A stretch of DNA of 64,000 nt from a virus, in the IMG/VR virus record IMGVR_UViG_3300041402_000314, positions 140,150-204,149 of that record. One strand, 5' to 3'. The notes under the pieces are model-generated. The model worked only from the letters and a program-made list of their open reading frames with translations. It was not told the origin of the DNA and searched no databases. Below, piece after piece: positions 5,714 to 62,145 of the stretch. Position numbers and translations under genes: made by a program. The number at the start of each line of letters is the position of its first letter. Position 1 is the first letter of the stretch.

Positions 5714-6058
5714 TTATGAAGTAATTCTACCAGCTTTCGAAGCGTCTTCAGCGTATATACTGAGAGGAAAGTTAAACGATGCGTACCTATCTCTTTCGAC
5801 ACCCAGACCAAATGGTGGGAATCTCATTGCTTCGAGTTCATCCCTAGAAACGTATCCTAACTCAGGGAACCCTTGCCCAAGATCACAGAGACCGAAGAAC
5901 ATTCTGCTCTCCTCGTCATATTCCGTAATTAACCATGTACATGCTCCGCCACCGAAAAACTTAACTACTGGTATGAAGTCAGACTCCCCACCAGACTCTT
6001 GATTGATCTTAGAGTTCCTAACCAGCTTATCTTCGATTATCTTAGTCATTAGTTTCAT
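5714..6058 (-). CDS. DUF2958 family protein (114 aa)
   Basis: ATG at 6058 with AAGGAG. Contains the hallmarks of DUF2958: KFFGGGACTWLITEYD, FFGLCDLGQGFPELGYV and SRDELEAMR. DUF2958 proteins occur on plasmids and phages and have no established function. First gene behind promoter P4. Family assignment is from recalled motif pattern; biochemical role unknown. Confidence 0.8.
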   Translation of the reverse strand: MKLMTKIIEDKLVRNSKINQESGGESDFIPVVKFFGGGACTWLITEYDEESRMFFGLCDLGQGFPELGYVSRDELEAMRFPPFGLGVERDRYASFNFPLSIYAEDASKAGRITS

Positions 6059-6140: not shown

Positions 6141-6174
6141 AAAAAAAGGTAGGCCGAATTAACGACCCACCTTT
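6141..6174 (-). terminator. Rho-independent terminator of the PspA/channel operon
   Basis: On the minus strand a 12-bp stem (6174-6163 with 6156-6145, two G-U pairs), a 6-nt loop, then seven U. Closes the four-gene unit 6198-10328. Confidence 0.85.
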
Positions 6175-6197
6175 TTGATACCATATATTTATTATTG

Positions 6198-6959
6198 TTA
6201 CTTCTTAAGAGCAGCTAAACGATCTTGAATACTCATAGTGGAAGTATCATCTCCACCACCCATAGCAGCCGTGATATTGGGGTCTTCATCGAGTCCACCA
6301 GTAGGCTTCAGAAGACGTGCTTTCATTGTTGATGCATCGGCAGACGCTTTGGCATCATCAGTACGTTTCTGCATGGCTTCGATAGCAGTATTGATACCAC
6401 CTGTCTTGCTCCTAATACCACTGGCAAGCTCGGCACGTTTCGCCTTCTTCTTAGCACGTTCCTCTGCCAGTTGTGCTTTCTGCATACCCTGTTTTGCCTT
6501 CTTAAGTTCGGCACGAGCATCTTTGAGAGTATCAGCCGCTTCAGAAGCGGTAGCTTCGAGTTCATCCAACATTTCCTTGGCATCGATAGCTTCTTGCTTC
6601 TCACGCTCGACATCATCTCCCATTTCTTCGAGAAGACCAAGAAGGGTTCCGAGACTAGCGGATAGAGAGGCAACCTTTGTATCATCGTCTCCTGCTTCTG
6701 CTATCTGATTCTGAAGAGTCTCGGCAGCTTGTAACCTCTGATTATAGAGCTTGACGATTTCATCCGCTTCCCTCTGCTCCTTTCCATGCTCGACTCTCGC
6801 CTGACCAGCTTCTTTAAGAATCTGATTTAGGTTATCATCCATCATTTTGATGGTGGCTTCAGTAGCTCCCTCGGTATCGTATCTAACGATAGCACCAGCA
6901 AGAGCCTCACCCGCATCTTCGATTTTTGTTTTTGTAAACGCTGATAGAAATTTTAACAT
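6198..6959 (-). CDS. PspA/IM30 (YjfJ-type) coiled-coil protein
   Basis: 253 aa, almost entirely long amphipathic helices with heptads (LEEMGDDVEREKQEAIDAK, DARAELKKAKQGMQKAQ), as in PspA/IM30/ESCRT-III-like proteins that bind the inner face of the cytoplasmic membrane under stress. The start MLKFLSAFTKTK gives an N-terminal amphipathic helix and KARLLKPTGG precedes a Gly/Asp-rich tail. Coupled to a DUF2491 (YjfK-like) gene, as in the yjfIJKLM group of E. coli. Family call rests on architecture plus context. Last gene before a strong terminator. Confidence 0.7.
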   Translation of the reverse strand: MLKFLSAFTKTKIEDAGEALAGAIVRYDTEGATEATIKMMDDNLNQILKEAGQARVEHGKEQREADEIVKLYNQRLQAAETLQNQIAEAGDDDTKVASLSASLGTLLGLLEEMGDDVEREKQEAIDAKEMLDELEATASEAADTLKDARAELKKAKQGMQKAQLAEERAKKKAKRAELASGIRSKTGGINTAIEAMQKRTDDAKASADASTMKARLLKPTGGLDEDPNITAAMGGGDDTSTMSIQDRLAALKK

Positions 6960-6978
6960 TTTATTTCTCCTTTTTATT

Positions 6979-7659
6979 TTAGATTATTGATAGTGACATA
7001 GGATGAATTGTAAATCCTTTATATATGACTATATTAGCAAATACCTCACCCATATCATCTTCCAGATCGAATTCGACTGCTACCAGTAGATATTCTGTTT
7101 CATCGCTGTTGAGAAACCTGTTGAATAGCATAGCATCACTATTATATTCGCCTTCTTCGGCTTCAGATTGTTCACCAGTTATTTCAATATCTTCCACAAT
7201 ACTGACTGGAGATGACCATTCACCGCTACCCCAAAGTCGTAAATAGGTTTCATCGTCTGGAGTCTCAATATCGGAATAGCCTATTAGACCGTCATCCGTA
7301 TCAAGCCAATCACTCCAATCTTCATCCGATTGAGGCTCAAACCCATAAGTCTGTTTGAAGAGAATAACTTCAGAACCATCCTTATTGAGTTGCATGAATA
7401 CTTCATTATCGTTTTCCGTATTCTTCATGTAGACTCTATAAGTCTTATCTCCGAATATCTTGAGTCGGGAAATTGCGAGGACGGTGTATTTACCGCCCTC
7501 GAACCATTCCAATTCAGGATTTAAGAGAGATGGGGTATCATCCAAAGTTATCAGGCTGTTTAATCTGATTCCTAGAGGAGCATCATCATGGACAATACCC
7601 TTTTTGGAATCCTTACGTTCCTTTAACTTATGTTTGAAGTAATCACCGACAAAACTCAT
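6979..7659 (-). CDS. DUF2491 (YjfK-like) protein
   Basis: 226 aa, acidic, starting MSFVGDYFKHKLKER. GIRLNSLITLDD near residue 30 and an all-beta, acidic body fit DUF2491, the family of E. coli YjfK, which is encoded beside the PspA-like YjfJ. Its exact function is unknown. GGGAG precedes ATG 7659; the upstream gene stops 2 bp away. Assignment is by recalled motif and by pairing with the PspA-like gene; moderate certainty. Confidence 0.6.
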   Translation of the reverse strand: MSFVGDYFKHKLKERKDSKKGIVHDDAPLGIRLNSLITLDDTPSLLNPELEWFEGGKYTVLAISRLKIFGDKTYRVYMKNTENDNEVFMQLNKDGSEVILFKQTYGFEPQSDEDWSDWLDTDDGLIGYSDIETPDDETYLRLWGSGEWSSPVSIVEDIEITGEQSEAEEGEYNSDAMLFNRFLNSDETEYLLVAVEFDLEDDMGEVFANIVIYKGFTIHPMSLSII

Positions 7660-7661
7660 GA

Positions 7662-9266
7662 TTATCTCCCACTCGCCTGATTTCTGATAGAGGGTATAAC
7701 ACTATTTATCTCTTCCAGAAGGGCATCAAATACGGCTGGATTTTTATTCTTCCATTTGTTGGAAATGATCATATCCATATCAACGGTAATGGTATCGATA
7801 TCACTGCTACCAAGCCATCCAGATTGGAGTTTACCGTAAGTACCTGCCTTGATAGTACCGAACTTATAAATTGGCTTATTACCGGGGTCTTTCAGATTAT
7901 CAAGACTACCATCTTCGATATTAGCCAATTTAAGTTCACCTCTACTACCAAGTTGTACGGCATTCCTCATGCTTCTGGCATTGATACCAGTAACAGCCAG
8001 TAAACAATCGGCTTGCCCATTAGTAACCTTAAGTACATTACCGCTCATACTCTTAGAGACCTTTACATTCACATCAGCATAATCGCTATTCTCGGCAACG
8101 AAATTTGCCCATGTCAGATAAGAACCAGAGTTTTCATAACCCACGAGAACCGTATTACCTGAGTCGAGGTCATCAATAGAATTGATATCGGCTTCAGTGT
8201 TACAAATAAGATGAGCATACTCGGTATATACAGACGGTATCCTTGAATAATTTAGCTTAGAGTTGTTCTTCTGAGCATGAATCCAGTAACCGTCTCTTTG
8301 TACAAATGCAGCATCACAATGACCAGCATCTATTTTCTTGAGGTTATCCATAGTACCTTCTGTACGAAGAACCTTTCCGTCTACGCTCATAGTAGCATTA
8401 GAAATCACGTTACCTGCATAGTAATACATACCGTCTGTTCCACCTGTACAAATAGTTAGTGTAGGCTTAACGGCATTTGTTACGTCCTGAGATAGTGCAA
8501 TATCAGCATCAACGCCTTCAGGAAGATAATTGGTATCGCGTGTACCGCTCATCTGAGATACTTCACGATCAAGACGATCAAGCTTTGCTCTTAGCTCGGC
8601 ATTCTCTCTTGCTTGCATATTAGCTTCCTGTCTCCAACCCTGATAACCAGCATTGTTATATTGGTTATATGCAAAACTATTATTTGAATTATCTAGCATC
8701 ATGTAAAGGAACATCGCATCCCACATACCGTAGCTCGAAGAACCGTAATATACATATGATGGCGCATTGTAGCCACTATAATATGAAGTCCTTCTGGTAT
8801 CATAAGTTCTCGGATTATAATTAGAAGTCCTTTGGGCAATTTTATTATTACTATATTTTCTCTTCAGCTTTGAAGTACGTACTGCTTTCTGCTTAGAGGT
8901 CTGAGTCTTCTTATTCGACTTCTTGAATTTAGAAGTATACGCAGCACTACGCTTCTTCGCTACAGTCTTCGGTGCTTTATTTTTAGCCCTTTGCTTACTA
9001 ATCTTTGTCTTAGATGAGGTAGTCTTTGAGACTGCCTTCATTTTTCTCTTCGGCCTAGAAGTTGTTACGGTCTTAGACCTTGAAGAACTTCTCTTTCTTG
9101 CGTTTGAGAAAGAGCTTTTTGAACTACCCCAACTCTTTGAACTTGAGAAGCTTTTGGATGAAGAAAAACTCCTTCCGCCTCCACCCCTCCGAGCCTCTAC
9201 TTCAACATAAGTCCATGTTGATATGAGAATCAATGCCAGTGCTATAATACTCAATTTGGTTTTCAT
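7662..9266 (-). CDS. Exported TAXI-type solute-binding protein with R/K/S-rich N-terminal region
   Basis: 534 aa. Residues 1-25 form a Sec signal peptide (LSIIALALILIS, cleavage near VEA-RR). Residues 26-150 are low-complexity Ser/Lys/Arg, then a Tyr-rich stretch (to about 185), a short coiled coil (222-238), and from about 268 a periplasmic-binding domain. That domain opens with TICTGGTDGMYYYAGN, typical of TAXI/NMT1 binding proteins of TRAP transporters. No TRAP permease is visible; instead the next gene encodes a ligand-gated channel. Probably periplasmic; the basic region might bind membrane phosphate or peptidoglycan (inference). Confidence 0.75.
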   Translation of the reverse strand: MKTKLSIIALALILISTWTYVEVEARRGGGGRSFSSSKSFSSSKSWGSSKSSFSNARKRSSSRSKTVTTSRPKRKMKAVSKTTSSKTKISKQRAKNKAPKTVAKKRSAAYTSKFKKSNKKTQTSKQKAVRTSKLKRKYSNNKIAQRTSNYNPRTYDTRRTSYYSGYNAPSYVYYGSSSYGMWDAMFLYMMLDNSNNSFAYNQYNNAGYQGWRQEANMQARENAELRAKLDRLDREVSQMSGTRDTNYLPEGVDADIALSQDVTNAVKPTLTICTGGTDGMYYYAGNVISNATMSVDGKVLRTEGTMDNLKKIDAGHCDAAFVQRDGYWIHAQKNNSKLNYSRIPSVYTEYAHLICNTEADINSIDDLDSGNTVLVGYENSGSYLTWANFVAENSDYADVNVKVSKSMSGNVLKVTNGQADCLLAVTGINARSMRNAVQLGSRGELKLANIEDGSLDNLKDPGNKPIYKFGTIKAGTYGKLQSGWLGSSDIDTITVDMDMIISNKWKNKNPAVFDALLEEINSVIPSIRNQASGR

Positions 9267-9293
9267 GTTACTTTATCCTCCTATATTTCCTTA

Positions 9294-10328
9294 TTAGTTT
9301 AAATGTAGTTTTAAAATATTGCTCCACCTTGAACATGACGTATAATCAATTACACTCCGATTCACCTCCTCCCTCAATTTACTATTCTGTTTAAATAATA
9401 TTCCATAACTTTCTATATTGAAGTTAGCTTTATGTAAGGTAACACTATTGTTATCCTTTGTCAAGTGTTTTAATGTAGCATAGTCATAAAATACCACATC
9501 ATGTAAACCTGCCTCCAGAGATTCGAGAGCATCTTCAGCGGAATCGAGACTTGAATATTGTACTCCCAGACTAGATAAAAGTTTACTACTGGCAGTATAT
9601 GACGATGTAGCTATCTTCCCTTTATTACTTAACCACTTCACTGACTTATTGGTTTCGCTGATATTACTTAATGTAGCAGTAGCCGCCAGAGTAGCTATAA
9701 ATGAACTGACTAAGATCAGTGCAATATACATCCAGACGGTAGTAGCAAGACGGCCTTTTGCTGTTTTGGGAGCTTTATCACCTAGTCCGACAGTAGTAGC
9801 TACCACATGAGTAAACCAATATGTATTGAGCCAACCCTTAAAGCCTTTTCCAAAATCAGGATTATTACGCTCAAAATACCATATAACGGTAGCGATGAAA
9901 CCGACAATAATTAAATAATTGATACAGGCGATTATAAAATCTACAGATATTAAGTTACTGATTACCATTAAGAATGTATTATCGGATTTTGTGGCTATTC
10001 CAGACGGTGAAGAAAAGTAAGGGTGTGAGAAATCATATTCCTTTTCTCTCTCGGATGTAATTGTGATAGCGGATAGACCGACATCGACCTCACCAGTTTT
10101 GATTTGAGAAAGTATATCTGTTAAAGAAAGTTCCTTTATATCGTAAGTATAACCATTCCTAGAAGCAACTGCTTTCCAGAGGTCTATTGTGATTCCATAC
10201 CAGATACCTCTCTCATCCTTCATAGAGAAAGGTGGCATCTCATCTGTAGCCACTACCAAATGGGTTTGGGCATTAGCAGTAGATGTAATGCTTAGAATTA
10301 ATAGTATGTAAATAAGTAGTCTTTTCAT
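9294..10328 (-). CDS. Ionotropic glutamate-receptor-like potassium channel (GluR0 type)
   Basis: Start at 10328 (MKRLLIYIL); signal peptide ends near ANA-Q. From there: a first ligand-binding half (VVATDEMPPFSM, about residues 24-118), helix M1 (about 128-150), a re-entrant pore with the potassium filter TTVGLGD (about 178-184), helix M2 ending in SSFIATLAATATLS, and a second ligand-binding half to the C-terminus. This S1-M1-P-M2-S2 order is that of bacterial GluR0, whose filter is TVGYGD. The protein would gate potassium across the host inner membrane on binding a periplasmic ligand. TVGLGD deviates by Tyr to Leu. Lies 5' in an operon with TAXI, DUF2491 and PspA-like genes. Confidence 0.85.
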   Translation of the reverse strand: MKRLLIYILLILSITSTANAQTHLVVATDEMPPFSMKDERGIWYGITIDLWKAVASRNGYTYDIKELSLTDILSQIKTGEVDVGLSAITITSEREKEYDFSHPYFSSPSGIATKSDNTFLMVISNLISVDFIIACINYLIIVGFIATVIWYFERNNPDFGKGFKGWLNTYWFTHVVATTVGLGDKAPKTAKGRLATTVWMYIALILVSSFIATLAATATLSNISETNKSVKWLSNKGKIATSSYTASSKLLSSLGVQYSSLDSAEDALESLEAGLHDVVFYDYATLKHLTKDNNSVTLHKANFNIESYGILFKQNSKLREEVNRSVIDYTSCSRWSNILKLHLN

Positions 10329-10338
10329 GATTGTCTCC

Positions 10339-10367
10339 ATTATACCTAATTATAATTTATTTGTCAA
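10339..10367 (-). promoter_or_regulatory. Consensus sigma70 promoter P5
   Basis: TTGACA (10367-10362), 17-bp spacer, TATAAT (10344-10339) on the minus strand: a perfect consensus. The predicted start point is only a few bases from ATG 10328, so transcripts from P5 would be nearly leaderless; GGAG just after -10 would serve read-through transcripts. Confidence 0.75.
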
Positions 10368-13613: not shown

Positions 13614-14017
13614 GATACTAATTTTTTCCTCGTAGCGTCCCAATATGAATCGCGATAACCAGTATCACAATAATAATCATTAGATTGAACTTTGGAGAAT
13701 ATCTGACTGATTTTAATATCATTCGAACCAAGGATATTGATAAACCAATTACCTTCTTTCGTTTCAGGTAGAGCAGACTCAATCTTTTTCCAAAGTAGAT
13801 ACTTATTCACATGTATATTATACTCATCGTCACGATAAGCGTCATAGAGAGCAAGTATATTCTTAACCGAGGCATCGGGTACAGTTAGAACCGTTCGGTT
13901 CTTCTCCTGCAATCTACGGGCTTCTATTTCCTGTTCCCTCTTTTCTATTCTAGCCTGTATTTCTGCTTTTTGTTTTGCTTTCTCTTTTCTCTTCTTCTGT
14001 ACATATTTAAAGATCAT
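13610..14017 (-). CDS. Hypothetical protein with basic coiled-coil N-terminus
   Basis: ATG at 14017 (MIFKYVQKKRK) is chosen because GGAGG is 10 nt away, whereas an ATG 3 codons earlier would be 1 nt from it. Residues 5-45 are Lys/Glu/Arg-rich and helical (KAKQKAEIQARIEKREQEIE), followed by a globular C-terminal domain. Overlaps coaB by 4 bp. No family recognised. Confidence 0.7.
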   Translation of the reverse strand: MIFKYVQKKRKEKAKQKAEIQARIEKREQEIEARRLQEKNRTVLTVPDASVKNILALYDAYRDDEYNIHVNKYLLWKKIESALPETKEGNWFINILGSNDIKISQIFSKVQSNDYYCDTGYRDSYWDATRKKLVS

Positions 14018-14670
14018 CGGTTCCATTCCTCCACTTGTCTTAAAATTTCAATAGCAATTCCTTCTTTTTCCATACAGGTTGTTGCGCCTTCATTAGTTAC
14101 GATATGAGCGACATGACAATTTTCTCTAATCATTTCCTCTTTATCATTGGTAACAACCATATCACAGCCATTTTTATCTATAGATTCATACCCAAGATTA
14201 ACTAGCTCTCTATAAGACGCTCCTACCTCAAACTTAAACCCAACAAGGTAAGCTTCTGGATTCCATTTCTTTATATAGGAAATCACCTTTGGAGTCTTTC
14301 TGATATTATCTCTCATATAATCTATGAAAGCATCAGCATCATTAGACTTCACCTTAACAGGATTCTCTCTATTGAATGTGAAATCGGATACAGCCATAGC
14401 ATGGATAATAACATCAGCTTTGGGAACATATCTTTCCATTTTCTCCATAAGGTCTTTAGTGTCTTTAACATCAATAAACCATAGTCTTTCATCGTTATAA
14501 TACGGGTTTGGTAATATGGAATTTCTACCATGTATAAAAAATACATCATGTCCGTCTTTCAAAAATGTTTCAGCTATAATAGCACCTAATTTCCCTGTAC
14601 TGATATTAGTAAGGACTCGGACATCATCGATATATTCAGTTGTCCCACCAGATGTAATTAATATTTTCAT
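14014..14670 (-). CDS. coaB: Phosphopantothenoylcysteine synthetase (CoaB) homologue
   Basis: 218 aa, stand-alone CoaB. TSGGTTEYIDDVRVLTN followed by STGKLGA is the nucleotide-binding signature of CoaB (TSGGT-E-DPVR-NxSSGK-G in the family), HAMAVSDF matches the conserved AxAVSDY segment, and NIRKTPKVI the loop carrying the active-site Lys. CoaB joins CTP-activated 4'-phosphopantothenate to cysteine in CoA synthesis. In most bacteria CoaB is fused behind CoaC; here coaC is a separate gene upstream, with an M23-like gene between. ATGA overlap with that gene. Confidence 0.85.
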   Translation of the reverse strand: MKILITSGGTTEYIDDVRVLTNISTGKLGAIIAETFLKDGHDVFFIHGRNSILPNPYYNDERLWFIDVKDTKDLMEKMERYVPKADVIIHAMAVSDFTFNRENPVKVKSNDADAFIDYMRDNIRKTPKVISYIKKWNPEAYLVGFKFEVGASYRELVNLGYESIDKNGCDMVVTNDKEEMIRENCHVAHIVTNEGATTCMEKEGIAIEILRQVEEWNR

Positions 14671-18298: not shown

Positions 18299-18327
18299 AT
18301 TATATCATTAAAAGAATTCTTTGTCAA
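18299..18327 (-). promoter_or_regulatory. Consensus sigma70 promoter P7
   Basis: TTGACA (18327-18322), 17-bp spacer, TATAAT (18304-18299) on the minus strand, overlapping the 3' end of the NADAR gene. Confidence 0.75.
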
Positions 18328-61254: not shown

Positions 61255-62145
61255 TTAACTGTTATAATTTTCAATGACGTTTTGAATATCCTTCAGTGCT
61301 TGAGTAGCCTTATCAGGATTAACCACACATTTATCTAAAGAACCATAATACTCTTCAAGGCAGTTTAGAAGTAAATTCTTGATAGCTCCCTCATCAGGAG
61401 AATGGGGCAGCTTAGAATTAAGATACAAAGTTTCTAATTCAGCTTCTTTCTTTTGAAAATAATTTTTAATATCATCAATAGACCATTCGCCCTTTCTGAT
61501 GGCTTTCAACTGTTCTCGATTCCTTTCTAAATCTAAATCCCCTTCCATCATAATTTGTTCCACTTCTCCGAGAAGACGTGGAACGTGATAAGCAAATTTA
61601 GTGTCAAATCCATGACGGTCTACTAAATCCTTTCGCTTTCCTGCTTTGGGTTTTTTAATTTCCATTTTATGTAATTGACTATAACTATAACCTTTGAAGC
61701 GATGCCACGCTCCTTTATGAAGAAAATCCTTTCGTTTCTCTCTAATCATATTACCTATTTTAGTTGAATGTGTAATACATCTAATAGGGACGAAGAGAGC
61801 ATCTATAACATTAGGATTATTATCCATACAAAGTTGAAAGAACTTAATAATGGAAAAAACTTGAAAATCGTATTCCTTTTCTCCGTCTTGCGACTTCACA
61901 TGATGTTCTTGATAGGTGTCAAATCTTTTTATCTGCCTTCCGAAACCTTGAATTTCTCCATTGAGATGTGGAAAAATCATATCTTTATGTGGGATACATA
62001 CTCCGTATACATCTACATCAGAGGTATCATTAGAAACCCCATACGCAAAACTACCCATAATAACTTCATATACCATGCTATTAGGCAACCATTTAGGAGG
62101 ACTAATTAGTTTTTGTTTATCCAACTTTTGTACATAACTACTCAT
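61255..62145 (-). CDS. RlaP/COG3541-type nucleotidyltransferase
   Basis: 296 aa. IMGSFAYGVSNDTSDVDVYGV is the GSxAYGxxxxxSDxDxxG motif of the COG3541 (PF10127) pol-beta nucleotidyltransferases, predicted to take part in RNA repair. FQVFSIIKFFQLCMDNNPNVIDALF and GYSYSQLHKM are family features too. Has the two catalytic Asp (DVD). ATG overlaps the upstream stop by 4 bp. Confidence 0.85.
   Translation of the reverse strand: MSSYVQKLDKQKLISPPKWLPNSMVYEVIMGSFAYGVSNDTSDVDVYGVCIPHKDMIFPHLNGEIQGFGRQIKRFDTYQEHHVKSQDGEKEYDFQVFSIIKFFQLCMDNNPNVIDALFVPIRCITHSTKIGNMIREKRKDFLHKGAWHRFKGYSYSQLHKMEIKKPKAGKRKDLVDRHGFDTKFAYHVPRLLGEVEQIMMEGDLDLERNREQLKAIRKGEWSIDDIKNYFQKKEAELETLYLNSKLPHSPDEGAIKNLLLNCLEEYYGSLDKCVVNPDKATQALKDIQNVIENYNS

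Follow-up and report, generated by a model that had tools for sequence, protein, structure and literature searches.

In this study, we identified a four-gene operon in a stretch of viral DNA of 64,000 nucleotides (the window), which is the last 64 kb of the 204,149-base record IMGVR_UViG_3300041402_000314. The genes, all on the minus strand, encode in this order a channel of the ionotropic glutamate receptor (GluR0) type, a secreted TAXI binding protein, a DUF2491 (YjfK-like) protein and a long helical protein. Taken as a whole, the operon is read here as an early-expressed viral module for amino-acid sensing at the envelope and for K+ homeostasis, the viral counterpart of a trans-envelope module of bacteria, and we put the probability of this reading at about 0.5. 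The retention of the unit in four divergent phages, the split that its genes share and the parallels in bacteria all count for it.

A four-gene operon shared by four phages

The record is that of a T4-like phage of 204 kb. It encodes a tail sheath and a baseplate of the T4 type, and its terminase large subunit, the gene of which adjoins the operon, is T4/cyanomyovirus-like with about 40% identity. An initial annotation of the window had placed the four genes between a consensus promoter and a terminator; the reading frames were found at that place and on that strand, and both flanking signals are strong. The features are as follows (window coordinates):

10339 to 10367, minus strand: sigma-70 promoter TTGACA-N17-TATAAT, matching the consensus at 12/12 positions and abutting an alternative ATG at 10340
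9294 to 10328, minus strand: GluR0-type channel of 344 amino acids, predicted to be of the ligand-gated K+ type (Pfam, hydropathy, profiles, alignment and model)
9777 to 9794, minus strand: codons of the selectivity filter TVGLGD (alignment with relatives)
7662 to 9266, minus strand: exported TAXI protein of 534 amino acids, with a signal peptide, a basic region rich in Ser/Lys/Arg, a conserved N-domain (about residues 165–262) and a TAXI/NMT1_3 domain (about 266–522)
6979 to 7659, minus strand: DUF2491 (YjfK) protein of 226 amino acids, with neither signal peptide nor transmembrane (TM) segment
6198 to 6959, minus strand: helical protein of 253 amino acids, with predicted helices at 3–24, 29–88, 93–186 and 191–217 and a conserved C-terminal motif, SxxDRLAALKK
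6143 to 6176 (about), minus strand: intrinsic terminator 3′ of the helical-protein gene, with a 14-bp stem and a T tail (−20.3 kcal/mol, z −7.0)
59186, 58937, 19451, 18327 and 10367, minus strand: five perfect sigma-70 sites (consensus scan)

Three further viral contigs, L067 (74.8 kb), L068 (363.5 kb) and L069 (41.8 kb), carry these four genes as well, all on one strand and in identical order. The initial annotation had called for a survey of phages with the same set and had named the separate occurrence of the genes in all relatives as a finding that would speak against it; all three viral relatives found hold the full set. Identity to the window copy is 30–44% for the channel, 40–53% for the TAXI protein, 34–41% for the DUF2491 protein and 46–48% for the helical protein, ranging from 25% to 73% over all phage pairs, and the reading frames are intact. 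Each of the four genes gives the same split, with the window and L069 on one side and L067 and L068 on the other. The phage TAXI domains form a single clade (100/98 support), and a moderately supported branch (89) separates the phage helical proteins from the rest. Apart from the operon, the four neighbourhoods compared have almost no block in common, and the flanking genes (radical-SAM, 6-pyruvoyl-tetrahydropterin-synthase-type, RtcB, terminase and others) differ. The common split and the differing flanks therefore mark the operon as an old cassette, kept intact, that moves or survives independently of its surroundings.

Because the scans rely on short peptide patterns, four is a lower bound for the number of viral copies. 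Scanning viral contigs with the channel or the DUF2491 protein as a lone sequence gave nothing, and alignments were needed as queries; wider alignments of these two proteins were too diverged to scan, and narrower ones returned the same contigs. The DUF2491 and helical proteins had no tblastn match in 50,697 annotated phage records. No Band-7 family member was found in the four viral records, and a search for glutaredoxin, itself uninformative, gave no match.

These data bear on the idea that the operon is host DNA or a chance mixture of genes, either a bacterial fragment that assembly joined to phage DNA or cargo that has kept no function. Every part does have bacterial relatives. Nevertheless, the presence of the operon with intact frames in four viral contigs of such divergence, the terminase gene adjoining it in this record and the fact that all four genes were seen together in none of the bacterial operons inspected largely refute this explanation, which we regard as extremely improbable.

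The window has five perfect sigma-70 sites with a 17-base spacer. Every one of them lies on the minus strand, and the number expected for both strands together is about 0.08. The sites therefore look like genuine promoters for the host RNA polymerase, and the minus-strand genes they serve are probably early genes of the T4-like phage. Some caution is needed with the operon promoter: its −10 box ends about 10 nt upstream of the ATG at 10328, leaving a leader of only a few nucleotides. The promoter at 18327 is similarly near a start codon, and some of the five sites lie almost on the start. The operon promoter is not conserved, no site having been found just upstream of the channel in L068 or L069; a near-consensus site lies upstream of the channel in L067. 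Strong hairpins stand at the equivalent position, directly 3′ of the fourth gene, in L067 and L068, giving a terminator in three of the four phages.

The GluR0-type channel

Pfam, the TM layout and the domain order of a structural model agree with the earlier identification of the first gene as a GluR0-type channel with the filter TVGLGD. The open reading frame (9294–10340) matches SBP_bac_3 (1.9e-26), Lig_chan (1.1e-10) and Ion_trans_2 (6.8e-10), and the SBP_bac_3 match is split by the Lig_chan/Ion_trans_2 pore match. Hydropathy gives a signal peptide and two TM segments, and the layout comprises the signal peptide (1–20), S1 (about 22–117), M1 (131–149), a pore helix (170–180), the filter (179–184), M2 (202–220) and S2 (about 236–344). 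Translation likely starts at the ATG at 10328, which yields the signal peptide MKRLLIYILLILSITSTANA, rather than at 10340, which overlaps the −10 box. A putative ligand-binding Arg in S1 (R94) is present in all nine aligned phage and bacterial channels, and an Asp in S2 (D282) in eight of the nine. Compared with the K+-type filter TxGYG, the window filter TVGLGD has Leu for Tyr, whereas the three phage relatives have TTGYGD, TTGYGD and TQGYGD.

By profile, the closest solved structures are bacterial glutamate-receptor cores (2pyy, slr1257), amino-acid binding proteins and animal AMPA and delta receptors. An AlphaFold model built from only four sequences has the order S1-M1-P-M2-S2 that the initial annotation had named as the structural check (pLDDT 65.9), and Foldseek with this model retrieved amino-acid binding proteins and NMDA/AMPA receptors at about 1e-15 (probability 1.0, low TM-score). 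Among the viral structures of BFVD, the best match is E3T502 of a giant virus, Cafeteria roenbergensis virus (514 amino acids, 1e-15), annotated as an amino acid transporter; on modelled structure, it may be another viral ionotropic-receptor-like protein.

Ionotropic glutamate receptors occur in animals, plants and bacteria. In the 50,697 phage records, tblastn found binding-domain matches only (coverage ≤38%) and no full-length homologue of the channel, and no earlier report of a channel of this type in a phage was found in the literature and collections searched. Within these collections and papers, it appears to be the first ionotropic-glutamate-receptor-type channel of a phage. Phycodnaviruses also encode K+ channels, which are not known to have a ligand-binding domain. 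They belong to algal viruses and are among the smallest K+ channels known (PMC3369850).

With GluR0 of Synechocystis (slr1257) and its prokaryotic homologues, the phage channel shares the arrangement signal peptide-S1-M1-P-M2-S2 with no third TM segment, a K+-type filter, and the ligand Arg and acidic residue. It differs from them in its place within a four-gene phage operon and in the Leu of the window filter, and it is about 21–36% identical to the bacterial channels compared. GluR0 conducts K+, affects cell volume and has been proposed to answer released glutamate (PMC13099474).

The exported TAXI protein

The second protein, as had been noted, is an exported TAXI protein with a basic Ser/Lys/Arg region: it matches Pfam NMT1_3 at 3.6e-18 (66.6 bits against a cut-off of 27), and the 130 residues behind the signal peptide contain 23% Ser and 42 Lys plus Arg, with no Asp or Glu. 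It misses the cut-off of NCBIfam TRAP_TAXI (75.2 bits against 84.35). It also matches TAXI chains of the Protein Data Bank (PDB), the closest solved one being 1us4, named 'putative GluR0 ligand binding core'; TAXI proteins of this kind bind glutamate or glutamine.

Many cultured phages (Rhizobium, Klebsiella Kp24 type, Noxifer, Vibrio and enhanced biological phosphorus removal (EBPR) phages; L002–L008) carry stand-alone TAXI genes (about 290–325 amino acids), with no evident partner genes. Those of Bradyrhizobium BDU-MI-1, EBPR siphovirus 2, Klebsiella FBKp24 and Pseudomonas Noxifer resemble the operon protein in being TAXI domains in phages; unlike it, they lack the Ser-rich N-domain and have no operon partners annotated nearby.

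One explanation suggested by these proteins is nutrient scavenging, in which both binding proteins help the cell to take up amino acids, with the channel as no more than a degenerate anchor. SBP_bac_3 and TAXI domains do serve as uptake binding proteins in bacteria, and the many stand-alone TAXI genes of cultured phages would suit such a role. We nonetheless judge it highly improbable: the operon contains no TRAP or ABC permease genes (TRAP membrane subunits being absent from it in all four phages), the pore helix and the K+-type filter are kept in the four phages, and the TAXI protein stays with the DUF2491 and helical proteins in phages and bacteria alike.

The DUF2491 and helical proteins

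The identity of the third protein as YjfK-like is well supported: Pfam DUF2491 (PF10679) matches it at 1.7e-16, the scores in the four phages are 60.5, 87.2, 69.1 and 77.1 bits against a cut-off of 25, and hhalign pairs it with E. coli YjfK at a probability of 98.5%. Since neither signal peptide nor TM segment was found, and since the Azospirillum fusion described below has DUF2491 behind a TM helix that closes with RRR, the DUF2491 and helical proteins are predicted to be cytoplasmic.

The fourth protein had been called a PspA-like coiled-coil protein. The predicted fold points in this direction; the sequence does not. The model (pLDDT 78.5, above 90 in a long hairpin) has a helix order like that of PspA/Vipp1, and Vipp1 occupies ranks 1–6 in the Foldseek search of the PDB (E 2.9e-3 to 2e-2, probability 1.0, low TM-scores). 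By contrast, hhalign gives a probability of 0.1% against E. coli PspA and 2.1% against YjfJ; the weak YjfJ match sits on the C-terminal motif (SxxDRLAALKK vs SAQDVLARLQRQ in YjfJ) and is slightly above shuffled controls. We therefore describe the protein as Vipp1/PspA-like in its predicted form and claim no family membership.

The initial annotation had also pointed to the neighbourhood of YjfJ and YjfK in bacteria, and the E. coli arrangement bears this out (PMC11237479). The operon resembles E. coli yjfIJKL and the third PspA/CesT-Tir operon group of Ravi et al. 2024 (K+ channel, DUF350, DUF1190, DUF2491; PMC11237479) in that DUF2491 adjoins a PspA-type helical protein, a likeness that depends on accepting the helical protein as PspA-type. 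Some bacterial versions of that group likewise have a K+ channel, PspA/YjfJ, DUF350, DUF2491 and the channel being co-located in some operons (PMC11237479). The phage unit differs in lacking YjfI, DUF350, DUF1190 and ATP-grasp, in a channel that would sense ligands outside rather than inside, and in the added secreted TAXI sensor. In the window, no YjfI-like open reading frame is present in the operon and none of any kind lies between the DUF2491 and helical-protein genes; DUF350 had no match around the operons of L067, L068 and L069. The yjfIJKL genes have been linked with heat tolerance (PMC12492005).

The operon's own promoter and terminator and its variable, moron-like setting could also fit cargo for defence or abortive infection, in which the K+ channel would depolarise the cell upon envelope damage by a rival phage. 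The neighbourhood of DUF2491 and a PspA-type protein is described as protective in bacteria (PMC11237479), and PADLOC gave no match for the channel, TAXI and DUF2491 proteins and coiled-coil matches only for the helical protein; both argue against this explanation, which we hold to be quite improbable.

Related operons in bacteria

A search with the helical protein gave 52 bacterial loci, the majority of them from Rhodospirillales and purple sulfur bacteria. DUF2491, DUF350 and the helical protein lie side by side in 48 of these; contig ends truncate three of the remaining four, and in the last (L054) the helical protein stands alone. The DUF2491 protein of Azospirillum has an exported Ser-rich stretch, a conserved N-domain ('FGIWDGLFLWFLLDN...YAQWRAEAERRAQDDAELRRKLDDLDRQL...NYLP') and a TM helix, followed by DUF2491. 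The same N-domain precedes the TAXI domain in the phages ('YGMWDAMFLYMMLDN...YQGWRQEANMQARENAELRAKLDRLDREV...NYLP'; 37–45% identity to the bacterial N-domain). By the Rosetta-stone argument, this shared fusion suggests that the secreted N-domain and the cytoplasmic DUF2491 act together across the inner membrane, and the parts of the operon may thus belong to one trans-envelope device. The Rhodospirillales/Chromatiaceae operon is about 40% identical to the phage unit in the helical protein and in the N-domain and about 27% in DUF2491; it differs in that the N-domain is fused to DUF2491 and not to TAXI, DUF350 is present and a channel is absent. In an alphaproteobacterial variant (L107, 7499–9358), the helical protein directly follows DUF2491 with no DUF350 between. 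In Azospirillum thermophilum (L011, 4832–14759), the DUF2491-DUF350-helical operon lies near genes for the osmoprotectant N-acetylglutaminylglutamine amide, a hint of an osmotic role.

A second class of Pseudomonadota (L129, L130, L131) has TAXI, DUF2491 and helical-protein genes in the exact phage order, with a Ser-rich exported TAXI protein and without DUF350. No channel is adjacent, and the helical proteins are not sister to those of the phages: such a relationship was rejected (approximately unbiased test, p 0.0006), with long branches in play. GluR0-like channels, 29–36% identical to the phage channels, are encoded elsewhere in two genomes of this class (L157, L158), one of which has the TAXI-DUF2491-helical operon. 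One bacterial GluR0-like channel (L157, 2356–7122; filter TTVGYGD) adjoins a 1156-amino-acid exported protein of the size of MscK-type mechanosensitive channels.

The complete four-gene operon was not seen in the 52 bacterial loci (flanks ≤10 kb) or among the inspected matches in 289 + 399 + 274 + 48 genomes, many with flanks of 1.5 kb only. Of the earlier claim that the combination is new in a virus, the addition of the channel and the occurrence in viruses do look new, while the TAXI-DUF2491-helical operon is here known from bacteria. Given these related bacterial operons and the published PspA/YjfJ-DUF350-DUF2491-K+ channel operons (PMC11237479), the parts were not brought together at random; the phages have a distinctive viral version of a known kind of bacterial neighbourhood.

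Proposed function

We propose that the host RNA polymerase would switch the operon on early from the consensus sigma-70 promoter. The channel would be a GluR0-type K+ channel of the inner membrane, and its clamshell in the periplasm would bind an amino acid, one from the glutamate/glutamine group being most likely; its architecture and binding residues are evident from the sequence, and the ligand, tetramer and gating are expected by analogy. The secreted TAXI protein, which has relatives of its basic Ser-rich part and N-domain in the periplasmic portion of bacterial DUF2491 proteins, would likewise face the periplasm and, from what is known of its family, bind amino acids or related acids. 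At the cytoplasmic face, the DUF2491 protein and the Vipp1/PspA-like helical protein would work and act on the membrane, the channel perhaps taking the role of membrane-spanning partner that DUF350 has in bacteria. Amino acids and K+ leaking from the same cell or from a damaged neighbour might then make the sensors open a route for K+ and call in the membrane-stabilising helical protein by way of the N-domain and DUF2491. Turgor, membrane potential and envelope integrity could thereby be held until virus production is complete.

Several observations weigh against this proposal. The filter of the window channel carries Leu in the Tyr position, and the channel model is weak (pLDDT 66), its pore region being poorly predicted. 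None of the 42 members of the helical-protein family matches the Pfam PspA_IM30 profile, and the best Foldseek E-value is a mere 3e-3 with a low TM-score. In no bacterium inspected does a channel stand beside the module, and the bacterial TAXI-DUF2491-helical operons have no evident membrane-spanning partner, so that a replacement of DUF350 by the channel is not required.

The same genes could instead serve sensing between cells for the timing of lysis or the control of superinfection. Amino acids from lysing neighbours would open the channel, and the K+ flux would shift the membrane potential, delaying lysis or blocking injection by a second phage, with the helical protein only guarding against self-damage. 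Two periplasmic binding-protein-type sensors within one operon, an early-type promoter and the answer to released glutamate proposed for GluR0 (PMC13099474) all suit this explanation. We consider it unlikely, as the four-gene unit includes no holin, antiholin or known superinfection-exclusion gene, and none of the four phages has a known host.

Overall, the initial observation is confirmed and strengthened, and the mechanism it put forward, control of the host membrane potential by ligand-gated potassium flux plus membrane repair, is plausible and partly supported. On a bolder reading, which we advance tentatively, an early operon of large T4-like phages would couple the sensing of outside amino acids, through an ionotropic-glutamate-receptor-type K+ channel, to an ESCRT-III/PspA-like membrane-remodelling protein; it would be a viral device for electrical and membrane signalling with which the infected cell senses nearby lysis or damage and adjusts its membrane.

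Other genes of the records

A DUF2958 gene (window 5714–6058) lies directly beyond the operon, and the window also holds a gene with a CoaB-like flavoprotein domain (14014–14670) and one for an RNA-repair nucleotidyltransferase of the RlaP type (61255–62145). Near the operon, L068 (16263–17542) and L069 (13095–14172) encode a small TM protein and a lipoprotein with a coiled tail; the pair is about 56% identical between the two contigs and has no Pfam match, and the L069 gene is split into two overlapping frames. In the 363-kb phage, the terminase large subunit (G004:C1:324277-326450; L113, L114) gives two adjacent matches whose query ranges overlap, and one of the two contains a TAA in frame; the gene is duplicated, split or interrupted.

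Significance

In summary, analysis of the window led to an operon that ties a channel of the ligand-gated K+ type to the poorly understood YjfJ/YjfK (PspA-DUF2491) envelope module. The N-domain common to TAXI and DUF2491 proteins gives this module a candidate sensor and a candidate connection across the envelope, and the function of DUF2491, and of phage TAXI genes in general, becomes directly testable. The operon raises the question of whether phages read amino acids outside the cell to decide how the host membrane is treated.

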